Source: Candidatus Nanosyncoccus nanoralicus
Lineage (GTDB): Bacteria > Patescibacteriota > Saccharimonadia > Saccharimonadales > Saccharimonadaceae
Length of the DNA: 47,213 bases
Assembly: GCF_004138405.1 (NCBI RefSeq)
Contig: NZ_PRLL01000002.1
Location: forward strand, 1-47,213
Direction: 5' to 3'
This document shows positions 2,920 through 25,281 of the stretch, piece by piece (within the stretch, counting starts at the first letter, position 1; each line of letters opens with the position of its first letter). A program made the position numbers and the translations under genes. The notes under the pieces were generated by a model. That model made no database searches. It was not told where the DNA came from and worked only from the letters and a program-made list of their open reading frames with translations.

Positions 2920-3330
2920 CAAGAGTCCGCAAGACAGTCGCTTGGTATAGCCAAGAGGAAAGTCCGGGCAGCATAGAACGCAGTAGTCGTTAACGGCGAC
3001 CGTTTGATCGTTTAGAAGTGTAGTGATACATCAAAAAACTTAAAAATAGGGAAAGTGCCACAGAGACAATACCGCCTTCGGGCAAGGGTGAAAAGTGTGA
3101 GGTAAGAGCTCACGGCGTACTATGGTGACATAGGCGATGGTAAACCCTACTGGCTGCAAGGAGTGCTAGAGAACCTTTGTTCGAGGATGCACGCTCACCG
3201 CTTGAACATTTTGGCAACAAGATGTCTAGATAGATGACTGTCGGCTTATCTAATATCCCCCCGTTATGGTTATCTTGTGATAGGGGATCGATAGAACATA
3301 AGTTACAGAACCCGGCTTAGTAAAGACTTA
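2920..3330 (+). ncRNA. rnpB: RNase P RNA (bacterial type A)
   Basis: The universal core GAGGAAAGTCCGGGC lies near 2956-2970 and the 3' signature ACAGAACCCGGCTTA near 3304-3318. The 5' strand (AAGAGTC, from about 2921) can pair with GACTT near 3325-3329 to close P1. The GACAGTCGCTTGG segment resembles P2/P3 of other bacterial RNase P RNAs. Length about 410 nt is normal. The RNA is the catalytic part of the ribozyme that removes tRNA 5' leaders. Ends are approximate. It is transcribed towards the convergent infC-rpmI-rplT-rpmB operon and shares a terminator with it. Confidence 0.95.
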
Positions 3331-3361
3331 AAAAATAGACCCTTTGTGGGCCTATTTTTTT
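3331..3361. terminator. bidirectional intrinsic terminator
   Basis: The hairpin AAAAAATAGaCCC / GGGcCTATTTTTT has A and T runs on both flanks. It can end rnpB on the plus strand and the rpmB operon on the minus strand. Confidence 0.85.
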
Positions 3362-4804: not shown

Positions 4805-6340
4805 TTATGGCTGGTTAAAACTAATGGCTTCCGATAGGTGTTGAATCTTAATATCGTTTGAGTGATCAAGATCGGCAATAGTGCGTGAAAGACGAATGAT
4901 TTTAAGCAAGGCACGGGCGGATAGTTGAAGTTTGCTGGAGGCTTGCTCAAGGTGCTTTTTTTCGGGGTCTTTAAGATGAATAAATTTTGTAATCTGCGAA
5001 GAAGAAAGTGTTCCATTAAAGAGCTGATCTGTTTGATAGCGGAATTTTTGATGCTCTAATGCCTCTTGTATACAATTTTTAATAACATGGTGGGTTAGGG
5101 GTTGTTCGTGGGTAGAGCTGAGAGTGGCCAGATTGAACTGATCGAGAATTTTTTGATTTCCTAAATATGGAACGTTAACTTTAATATCGATGCGATCTAG
5201 AATTGGACCACTAATCTTCTTTTGATAGCGCTGAATTTCGTTTGGAGTACAGGTGCAATGTTTGATTTGACTACCATAAAAACCGCAAGGGCAGGGATTC
5301 ATGGTGGCGACCAGGATGAAATTTGCGGGATAGGTGACCTTTTCTTTGGTTCTGGCGATTGTAATTTGATGATCTTCGAGTGGTTGGCGCAAGGCCTCTA
5401 TGACTTGACGGGAAAATTCAGGTAGTTCATCAAGAAAGAGGACGCCGTGATGTGCGAGGGAGATTTCTCCTGGTATGATGGGGTTACCACCACCTATAAT
5501 GGAGCAAGTAGAGCTACTGTGATGAGGTGAGCGGAATGGACGAGAATCTACGATATTGAGAGCCTTAGAGAGTTCTTTTAGTTTGGTAATTTCGAGAAGC
5601 TCATGGGTGCTGGGGCGAGGAAGAAGAGCTGGAATAGTTTTGGCAAGTAGGGTTTTGCCACTACCCGGAGGACCACTAAAAAGTATATTGTGATGGCCTG
5701 CTAAGGCAAGTGTGAGGGCGCGTTTGGCAAAATTCAGGCCATAAACTTGATCAAGTGTCGTGTCGAATTTCATAGTTGTTGATGAGTGGGCTGGTTGATA
5801 ATTCTGGGAAGTAACTGGAGTTATAAGCGTTTGGCCCTTGAGATGAAGAAATAGTTGACGTAGGTTTTGAACTGGAAAAAGCTTAATATTGTCTACGATG
5901 GCAGCGGAGTTTAAATTTTCGCTAGGAAGATAGATCTCGGTGAAACCAGCATCCCTGGCAGCTTCAACAATATTGATAATACCAAAGACGGGTCGAAGAT
6001 CGCCACTTAAAGAAAGTTCACCGACAAAGAATTTATGCATTATATTAAGTGGAGTCAGCTGCTTGCTGCCAGCAAGAATGGCGATGGCAATTGGTAGGTC
6101 GAGGGTGGACCCAGTTTTGGTTAGGTTGGCGGGAGCGAGATTGACAGTGACTTTTTGAAGTGGAAATGTAAGATCAGAATTTTGTATGGCGTTACGGACG
6201 CGATCCCTTGATTCAAAGATAGTTTTGTCGGCCATACCAACGAGATTGAATACCGGTAGGCCTTTGACAAAACTAGCTTCAACTTCGATGATTTTACCAT
6301 TGTAGCCGTAGGGAATAGCTGAATATACTTTTGTAATCAT
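4805..6340 (-). CDS. comM: ComM/YifB-type Mg-chelatase-like AAA+ ATPase
   Basis: 511 residues, the usual length. The N-terminal domain (about 1-170) has the S5-like ComM signature: VKGLPVFNLVGMAD and VNLAPANLTKTGSTLDLPIAIAI. The AAA+ core follows with Walker A GPPGSGKT near residue 222, Walker B LFLDELPEF and the MNPCPCG motif. A C-terminal Mg-chelatase domain ends the protein. In Vibrio cholerae ComM is a hexameric branch-migration helicase that extends integration of transforming DNA, so this gene fits natural competence. A TATATT box (6352-6347) ends 6 bases before the ATG, suggesting a leaderless mRNA. It is transcribed away from tmRNA. Confidence 0.92.
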   Translation of the reverse strand: MITKVYSAIPYGYNGKIIEVEASFVKGLPVFNLVGMADKTIFESRDRVRNAIQNSDLTFPLQKVTVNLAPANLTKTGSTLDLPIAIAILAGSKQLTPLNIMHKFFVGELSLSGDLRPVFGIINIVEAARDAGFTEIYLPSENLNSAAIVDNIKLFPVQNLRQLFLHLKGQTLITPVTSQNYQPAHSSTTMKFDTTLDQVYGLNFAKRALTLALAGHHNILFSGPPGSGKTLLAKTIPALLPRPSTHELLEITKLKELSKALNIVDSRPFRSPHHSSSTCSIIGGGNPIIPGEISLAHHGVLFLDELPEFSRQVIEALRQPLEDHQITIARTKEKVTYPANFILVATMNPCPCGFYGSQIKHCTCTPNEIQRYQKKISGPILDRIDIKVNVPYLGNQKILDQFNLATLSSTHEQPLTHHVIKNCIQEALEHQKFRYQTDQLFNGTLSSSQITKFIHLKDPEKKHLEQASSKLQLSARALLKIIRLSRTIADLDHSNDIKIQHLSEAISFNQP

Positions 6341-24690: not shown

Positions 24691-24714
24691 TAAAAAAAGA
24701 CCGAAACGGTCTAA
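24691..24714 (-). terminator. terminator of the tRNA-Ala/minihelix unit
   Basis: Minus strand GACCG, TTT loop, CGGTC and seven T, directly after the CCA-ended hairpin. Confidence 0.8.
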
Positions 24715-24719
24715 TTTTT

Positions 24720-24755
24720 TGGTGGAGTATTTAGCGGGGGGACGCTAAATACCCC
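24720..24755 (-). ncRNA. CCA-ended tRNA-Ala-like minihelix (36 nt)
   Basis: On the minus strand GGGGTATTTAGCG (24755-24743) pairs with CGCTAAATACTCC (24736-24724) over 13 bp around a 6-nt loop (T and five C), followed by ACCA (24723-24720). The only non-Watson-Crick pair is G3 with U at the position equivalent to 70, the main alanine identity element. The six outer pairs and ACCA match the adjacent tRNA-Ala. Length is close to an acceptor-T minihelix (12 bp plus loop). It lies between tRNA-Ala and the terminator, so it should be in the same transcript. Alanylation by AlaRS and processing by RNase P are inferences from known minihelix substrates. Confidence 0.6.
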
Positions 24756-24778
24756 ATGGCTGATTATTAATCAGGAAA

Positions 24779-24855
24779 TGGTGGAGTAACAGGGATTCAA
24801 ACCCTGGACCTCTGCCTTGCAAAGGCAGCGCTCTAATCAGCTGAGCTATTACCCC
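24779..24855 (-). tRNA. tRNA-Ala (TGC anticodon)
   Basis: Minus-strand cloverleaf: acceptor GGGGTAA / TTACTCC with the G3-U70 pair that marks alanine tRNAs, anticodon loop TTTGCAA (TGC), T-arm with canonical TTTGAAT loop, discriminator A and encoded CCA. A 23-base spacer containing a small hairpin (CTGATT/AATCAG) leads to the minihelix. Separate from rRNA genes. Confidence 0.97.
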
Positions 24856-24864
24856 AGTAGAAAT

Positions 24865-24893
24865 ATAGTAACAAAGAACTAGAAGGTTGTCAA
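24865..24893 (-). promoter_or_regulatory. tRNA-Ala promoter
   Basis: Minus strand TTGACA (24893-24888), 17-base spacer, TACTAT (24870-24865), start near 24858. Confidence 0.85.
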
Positions 24894-24940: not shown

Positions 24941-24969
24941 TTGACAAAAAGCTGTGGTTATTATATAAT
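24941..24969 (+). promoter_or_regulatory. promoter of the KGG stress-protein gene
   Basis: TTGACA (24941-24946), 17-base spacer, TATAAT (24964-24969), a perfect consensus promoter. It is followed by a leader of about 100 bases. Confidence 0.9.
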
Positions 24970-25074: not shown

Positions 25075-25281
25075 ATGGCTGGAACAAAGCAAGGTGGCCT
25101 AAAAGCTGCTGCAACAAACCGTGAGAAATACGGTAAAGATTTTTACGCAAAGATTGGACAGAAGGGTGGCCGTTTAGGCTGTACTGGTGGCTTTGCTGCA
25201 AACCCTGCACTTGCTAAGATTGCTGGTGCTAAAGGCGGTCGTATTTCACGACGTGGCCCTGCAAAAAAGACAACTGAGTAA
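25075..25281 (+). CDS. KGG-repeat (YciG/con-10-like) small basic protein
   Basis: 68 residues with glycine-lysine repeats: GGLKAAATNREKYGKDFYAKIGQKGG, GGFAANP and AKGGRISRRG, which match the KGG motif of the YciG/GsiB/con-10 stress protein family. Such proteins are small, basic and probably disordered. In Bacillus GsiB and enterobacterial YciG they respond to general stress. The ATG follows AAGGAATA at good spacing. The perfect consensus promoter suggests strong expression, and the leader of about 100 bases contrasts with most genes in this window and could carry control. A terminator follows. Confidence 0.82.
   Translation: MAGTKQGGLKAAATNREKYGKDFYAKIGQKGGRLGCTGGFAANPALAKIAGAKGGRISRRGPAKKTTE

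Follow-up and report, generated by a model that had tools for sequence, protein, structure and literature searches.

The tRNA-like domain of tmRNA mimics a tRNA and accepts alanine but has no normal anticodon arm, and the RNase P model hairpin pATSer is an artificial RNA derived from tRNA-Ser. Minihelices charged by aminoacyl-tRNA synthetases have served since 1989 as a laboratory tool and as a model for the origin of the code (PMC11221534, PMC9976931, PMC4033280); passages of the first of these papers present them as model substrates of both RNase P and alanyl-tRNA synthetase (AlaRS), and passages of the two others, which are reviews, treat them as constructs or ancestral models. Mini- or microhelices with the G3:U70 pair are described as being charged by AlaRS forms without C-Ala, the domain that binds the tRNA elbow (PMC10036535). 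In the bacterial cell wall, staphylococcal wall-bridge tRNA-Gly isoacceptors are withheld from translation so as to supply Fem enzymes, and Weissella FemX requires the G2-C71 pair of tRNA-Ala (both in passages of PMC4052509). Among the literature matches listed, no natural minihelix gene is described. Here we report a minihelix that is encoded next to tRNA-Ala in a member of the Saccharibacteria, and compare it with these systems.

A CCA-ended hairpin downstream of tRNA-Ala

The window, i.e. the whole stretch of 47 213 nt from Candidatus Nanosyncoccus nanoralicus that we analysed, looks like an ordinary Saccharibacteria chromosome, with gyrBA, FtsA/Z, Suf, PriA, 16S, RNase P RNA and tmRNA (RF00023). 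Its minus strand encodes, at 24755-24720, a 36-nt CCA-ended hairpin, GGGGTATTTAGCGTCCCCCCGCTAAATACTCCACCA, which lies between tRNA-Ala(UGC) (24779-24855, minus strand; ARAGORN and Rfam calls) and a terminator-like hairpin, and whose mature ends are predicted from sequence, fold and the conserved family. It consists of the 5' stem strand GGGGTATTTAGCG (24743-24755, with G3 at 24753), the 6-nt loop TCCCCC (24737-24742), the 3' stem strand CGCTAAATACTCC (24724-24736, with the partner U of G3 at 24726) and ACCA, i.e. the discriminator A73 and the CCA end (24720-24723). The stem has 13 bp, or 14 if U-1:A73 is counted, and its sole wobble is pair 3, G3:U70. Sequence and fold thus agree with the initial annotation, which had described a CCA-ended 13-bp hairpin with a single G3:U70 wobble beside tRNA-Ala. 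Together with its flanks the hairpin folds with a minimum free energy of -20.3 kcal/mol (z -6.9 versus 200 shuffles), and no second NCCA-ended hairpin with an uninterrupted stem of 12 bp or longer (loop 3-8) occurs in the window; of ten Markov-sampled control windows, nine contained none and one contained one. The repeat TGGTGGAGTA found at 24720 and 24779 is the acceptor 3' end common to minihelix and tRNA-Ala. The leader directly before the minihelix is CAT (24756-24758), YAU being usual at this place.

The minihelix starts 23 nt 3' of tRNA-Ala(UGC) and ends 7 nt 5' of the terminator-like hairpin, which is followed by a T run (24698-24712, minus strand); the interval between the two genes holds a 6-bp hairpin, CTGATT-AAT-AATCAG (24760-24774, minus strand). 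Before the tRNA lies a promoter-like -35/-10 pair, TTGACA-17-TACTAT, with TG before the -10 (24865-24893, minus strand). Both signals are pattern matches, and since they enclose the two genes it is plausible that tRNA-Ala and minihelix share one predicted transcript. On the plus strand, a 12/12 sigma-70 promoter match (24941-24969) lies 5' of the frame of a 68-aa KGG-rich basic protein (25075-25281).

Occurrence in Saccharibacteria

Loci of relatives were fetched by the TrmH-family protein adjoining the tRNAs, and the best 80 of 253 were retained; they contain 73 tRNA-Ala(UGC) genes. The minihelix occurs in five of these 80 loci, 3' of tRNA-Ala in three (one of them from oral taxon 351) and 3' of tRNA-Ile in two, so that it is not absent from all close relatives, though most of the loci lack it. 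Up to 400 nt from their tRNAs, the 80 loci were scanned for hairpins that have six outer pairs and end in CCA; the scan recovered the same five and found other hairpins in seven more. ACCA-ended hairpins of 28-30 nt in four of the seven (L037, L056, L061, L080) were set aside as a candidate A/T-rich second element. In five loci without a minihelix (L033, L037, L061, L071, L080) another recurrent structured element lies 3' of tRNA-Ala, approximately TAGGA..CGAG.GAAA, with a variable stem that in several loci is followed by another one, which ends in GTCGACCA.

Two covariance models were built, R1 from 6 sequences and R2 from 18, the outlier hairpin GAAATG...CATTTCAACA (L112) having been removed before the second. 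At E <= 0.01, R1 matched 33 of the 392 genomes sampled from the order, and the 19 loci that were read all proved to be minihelices. Matches of 79-80 nt to R1 for which loci were at hand were tRNA-Ala(CGC/GGC); every model match 79-81 nt long was assigned to tRNA-Ala, and wherever loci were fetched the identity was checked and was tRNA-Ala(CGC) or (GGC). Several weak matches to either model (below about 20 bits) were left unread. With tRNAs counted in, R2 had matches in 71 of the 198 genomes sampled from one family and in 27 of the 379 sampled across the phylum. The pattern TGGGGYRN{16,28}YRYTCCACCA hit 63 places in 60 of the 198 family genomes; 54 of them (in 54 genomes) were read as minihelices and nine as something else. 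Six more genomes (G072, G315, G284, G777, G172, G328) were added by the model alone, which brings the family sample to 60 of 198 genomes with a minihelix, 53 of them read with their surroundings. Rejected on sequence were hits in G365, G802, G223, G386, G361 and G158 and, in G752, G156 and G164, the hit at a second site; a perfect hairpin matched by the model in G196 was dropped as it ends CCATCA, and L133 is not a minihelix. A search of the genome contigs with the stem of the window hairpin as an exact pattern gave no match.

In the phylum sample, where 14 of 26 pattern matches were counted as non-minihelices on sequence alone, minihelices were read in 13 genomes, 12 of which are numbered within the order sample. 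The remaining one, G605, carries its minihelix 4 nt 3' of tRNA-Ile. Its 16S shares only 77.6-79.7% identity with that of the window and of three other minihelix-bearing genomes, which are 87.1-93.0% identical among themselves. This 16S gene (L258, 633-2282) has 1650 bases, and its length and divergence may reflect an insertion and a deep lineage. Viral contigs gave 24 pattern matches, none of which was accepted: 22 are one identical, weakly folding sequence that we read by eye as phage coding DNA, one (L229) is without outer pairing, and one (L230) folds and reads, again by eye, as coding.

To what extent the missing minihelices are real can be judged from tRNA-Ala. Among 36 family genomes without an accepted minihelix, a search for the tRNA-Ala(UGC) anticodon arm matched eight, of which six are real tRNA-Ala loci. 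Two arm patterns were run on 29 of the 36, and 23 of these showed no tRNA-Ala(UGC), a number to be read with the caveat that the patterns could miss unusual arms; many absences may therefore be missing contigs of the rRNA operon. Around the six real tRNA-Ala loci, which are from the sister family, the 350 nt on the downstream side and the 150 nt on the upstream side contain no minihelix; one of the six, L219, retains 3' of tRNA-Ala a relict hairpin of 31 nt that lacks G3:U70. The minihelix is likewise missing from L214 (G061). True losses of the minihelix exist. In L217, from a genome without the minihelix, a partial tRNA-Ile-like fragment, recognised by eye, stands before an intact tRNA-Ile 3' of tRNA-Ala.

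Conservation and covariation

Covariation was analysed on 34 unique 36-mers out of 49 unique minihelices, for which CCACCA had been required at collection. Pairs 1-3 are invariant (GC, GC, GU), pair 4 is GC in 33 and GU in one, pair 5 is UA in 31 and CG in three, pair 6 is GC in 29 and AU in five, and pairs 9-12 vary. Five measures were applied, two of which are weak. The percentage of paired cells is 97.1% (83.6% in shuffled controls), and there are 56 cells with both sides changed (12.3 in shuffled controls, the observed value being reached by none of 500 shuffles; 5-14 in slid controls). The weak measures are the number of pairs with both sides changed (7 versus 4.8, reached by 21 of 500 shuffles) and the number of pair types (16 versus 14.8, reached by 133 of 500). 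The hairpin that the initial annotation had expected in relatives is indeed found there, with compensatory changes and an unchanged G3:U70.

The earlier searches had been biased towards GGGG and CTCC, and a separate test therefore put no constraint on positions 3 and 70. In the 198 genomes the free pattern gave 94 matches; 55 pass a hairpin rule blind to pair 3, and 50 of the 55 are G:U. Two of the five other hairpins (L264, L265) lie in open frames, and the remaining three fold weakly, at -3.5 to -4.6 kcal/mol. After removal of one G:U match that is coding by its context (G752:C15) and addition of one that fails the pair-5 rule and adjoins tRNA-Ile (G317), all 50 accepted minihelices have G3:U70. 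The constancy of pairs 1, 2 and 4 is less well tested, because the test pattern fixed or half-fixed them. A73-CCA is present in all 34 unique 36-mers, CCACCA having been required by the searches. The YAU leader precedes 55 of 64 distinct minihelix loci, in searches that favoured YAU, and U-1 is found in 58 of 64 minihelices versus 89 of 136 tRNAs of the same loci, where most searches favoured T-1; six minihelices found by the model are without U-1.

The commonest minihelix has a 6-bp outer helix, a purine-rich internal loop (positions 7-8), a 6-bp inner helix, often GGC...GUC, and a stable tetraloop, again giving 36 nt. Stems mostly have 12-14 bp. Among 55 hairpins the tetraloop is UUCG in 18 and GAAA in 18, others having different loops, and in the window and in oral taxon 351 an uninterrupted stem carries the loop UCCCCC. 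What is preserved is thus the length and the acceptor end, but not the interior and the loop. Taken together, we regard it as virtually certain that the minihelix is a conserved RNA gene. Reading it as a micro-ORF (ATGGGG...) was dropped, the frame being apparently unconserved by eye.

Genomic placement

The minihelix occurs in the orders Ala-MH-Ile, Ala-MH-Ile-Val, Ala-MH-Val-Ile, Ile-Ala-MH, Ala-Ile-MH, Ile-MH-Ala and MH-Ala (MH, minihelix), and in five loci (L103, L106, L120, L257, L259) it lies inside a 16S-23S spacer. In five genomes (L253, L254, L255, L256, L261) the fetched stretch contains no tRNA-Ala, one of these stretches (L253) starting at a contig end. In all five, GGGG is preceded at a distance of exactly 11 nt by a -10-like box (TATACT, TATAAT, TATAAT, TATCAT and TATACT, respectively), and by eye a terminator-like hairpin and T run follow the minihelix in four, the exception being L256 with T runs only.

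One could suppose that the minihelix is a cis element, i.e. a spacer hairpin cut by RNase P that separates tRNA-Ala, tRNA-Ile and rRNA in the precursor. The position 3-14 nt 3' of tRNA-Ala in 28 of the 36 loci where the minihelix directly follows this gene would suit such a role, as would the several cases in the 16S-23S spacer. However, the five genomes have a minihelix with its own -10-like box and no tRNA-Ala near, other minihelices lie 3' of tRNA-Ile, 5' of tRNA-Ala or between the two, and processing alone would not fix G3:U70, so that we consider a cis element very unlikely. The initial annotation had also stated that the outer six pairs match tRNA-Ala, which is correct for the window and does not hold as a rule: over 55 loci, pairs 5, 6 and 7 equal those of the linked tRNA-Ala(UGC) in only 11, 12 and 12, respectively. 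Stand-alone units, varied orders and differing pairs 5-7 make both a spacer acting only in cis and a duplication scar poor explanations. Indeed, the alternative first offered for this locus, a scar left when tRNA-Ala was duplicated or when an element integrated at the 3' end of the tRNA, is refuted and has next to no probability left: the GGGG and CTCCACCA ends are common to minihelix and tRNA-Ala and the relict hairpin of L219 shows that decay occurs, but the minihelix recurs with a rewritten inner stem and covariation over dozens of genomes, in varied positions and in units away from tRNA-Ala, and its pairs 5-7 are not copied in concert with the local tRNA.

Predicted processing and charging

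Transcribed with tRNA-Ala, or elsewhere inside rRNA operons or apparently alone, the minihelix would probably be cleaved at its 5' end, behind the leader, by RNase P, whereas its 3' CCA is encoded. The window provides a candidate enzyme with a class A RNase P RNA (2922-3334, plus strand; Rfam), in which we take GGTAA at 3139-3143 to be the motif for pairing with the 3' CCA. The features of hairpin substrates are present in the minihelix: an acceptor-length stem, a 3' RCCA, a leader and G1:C72 (34 of 34). With U-1, YAU, G1:C72, ACCA and an acceptor-length helix it therefore fits an RNase P substrate, and maturation by this enzyme is what these features suggest.

The features of AlaRS minihelix substrates are likewise present, namely G3:U70, A73, CCA and an acceptor-length helix. 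In all four minihelix-bearing genomes scanned (L247, L248, L249, L252) AlaRS consists of tRNA-synt_2c and tRNA_SAD only, has 624-666 aa and ends after the editing domain; DHHA1 (C-Ala) is absent from it in all four. The open frames of AlaRS have 628-715 codons in genomes with and without the minihelix alike (match in 49 of 50), and no second full-length AlaRS was found among the 50 genomes searched. One minihelix-bearing genome, G129, encodes in addition to a normal AlaRS two AlaRS-like proteins of 430 and 382 aa with the catalytic domain only (L251, 895-2184, plus strand, and 4831-5976, minus strand); the family match to the first passes through one stop. Because G3:U70, A73 and G2:C71 are AlaRS elements, this AlaRS without C-Ala may well charge the minihelix by way of G3:U70, and we consider alanylation likely. 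An AlaRS that lacks C-Ala need not read the wobble, since charging by the alpha subunit of the split AlaRS of Nanoarchaeum is not specific for G3:U70 (in passages of PMC10036535).

Proposed use of the alanine

The minihelix has no anticodon and therefore cannot decode, so that its alanine would most likely be passed to a non-ribosomal acceptor. The best reading of the locus is an anticodon-free RNA that is matured by RNase P, alanylated, and probably a donor of alanine outside translation; judged from its sequence, an alanylated RNA working outside decoding is favoured by the balance of the evidence. The best available candidates for the receiving end are peptidoglycan aminoacyltransferases of the FemAB/FemX type, since they are usually multi-copy here and since Weissella FemX reads G2:C71 of tRNA-Ala. 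This pair is invariant in the 34 unique 36-mers, although the search patterns also fixed it. FemAB domains were found in 55 of 60 genomes (29 of 30 with and 26 of 30 without a detected minihelix), including six of six genomes that have tRNA-Ala and lack the minihelix (G338, G274, G120, G200, G061, G006), and G132, which has a minihelix, gave no FemAB match. We suggest only tentatively that the charged minihelix would feed FemAB enzymes. Use in lipid aminoacylation, which had also been proposed, is disfavoured as far as MprF is concerned: the domain LPG_synthase_C (PF09924) was above the cut-off in none of 46 genomes (35 with and 11 without the minihelix), with four weak matches. FemAB, AlaRS copy number and MprF were all considered as partners of the minihelix, and none separates genomes with the minihelix from those without. 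The full proposal, a natural, gene-encoded acceptor minihelix acting as a 36-nt alanine carrier outside decoding and spent on cell-wall or other non-ribosomal chemistry, we rate as close to an even call.

Alternatively, the minihelix could be a regulatory decoy that titrates AlaRS or RNase P, slowing charging or sensing uncharged acceptors, and whose alanine is not passed on. The conserved identity of the acceptor end and the YAU that usually precedes it are what AlaRS and RNase P read, and growth inhibition by sequence-specific minihelices is reported, to go by its title, in Hipps and Schimmel 1995. However, titration of RNase P only would not need G3:U70, and the placement in the rRNA operon (L103, L106, L120, L257, L259) suggests bulk supply instead of regulation. 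We consider a decoy unlikely.

Less probable still is a role of the alanylated minihelix on the ribosome, as an acceptor bound to EF-Tu or free, at the A site or the peptidyl transferase centre, where it might act in puromycin-like release, rescue or hibernation like the alanylated tRNA-like domain of tmRNA minus the mRNA part. The acceptor-T stack of tRNA has 12 bp, to which the usual minihelix stem comes near. The minihelix is also encoded with rRNA in several genomes, and work on EF-Tu with minimal substrates is mentioned in a passage of PMC11221534. Against this, the window already carries tmRNA, and there is no conserved loop for SmpB-like binding.

If the carrier reading is true, an aminoacyl carrier without an anticodon is at work in living cells, the 'operational RNA code' has a present-day use, and RNA architecture alone splits the supply of amino acids between translation and other uses. 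The minihelix would also add a new RNA family to a large, poorly understood bacterial group, and as this group includes cultured, transformable members (PMC10633639), the reading is directly testable.

Comparison with known systems

Neither ARAGORN nor Rfam calls the minihelix a tRNA, and as a single 36-nt hairpin without cloverleaf it is not one. Rfam 15 assigned no family to it, neither in the window and nine loci at the gathering score nor in five loci at E up to 1; sub-threshold overlaps were c-di-GMP-I-GGC (L155, E 0.61) and tmRNA_permuted (L106, E 0.38), the latter match extending from the tRNA-Ala to 1516. We regard the minihelix as categorically new as an RNA gene, with the function proposed above. 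With tRNA-Ala (RF00005) it has in common G1-G4, C69, U70, C71, C72, A73 and CCA, and often the operon; it has half the length, no D, anticodon and T arms, and usually different pairs 5-7. It is not tmRNA (RF00023) either, as an mRNA part, a T arm with its T loop and any extra domain are missing, and the CCA is followed by a terminator-like hairpin (in the window and, by eye, in L253, L254, L255 and L261). RNase P model hairpins of the pATSer type resemble it in their acceptor-length helix, simple loop, short leader and ACCA, whereas the minihelix is natural and has alanine identity. Laboratory alanine mini- and microhelices share with it the acceptor-length hairpin, A73-CCA and G3:U70 identity; they are constructs, whereas the minihelix is a conserved chromosomal gene and a predicted AlaRS substrate. 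The staphylococcal tRNA-Gly isoacceptors follow the same logic as we propose here, an acceptor RNA outside translation, but, as far as described in passages of PMC4052509, they are complete tRNAs with weak EF-Tu binding, whereas the minihelix would serve the same end without an anticodon.
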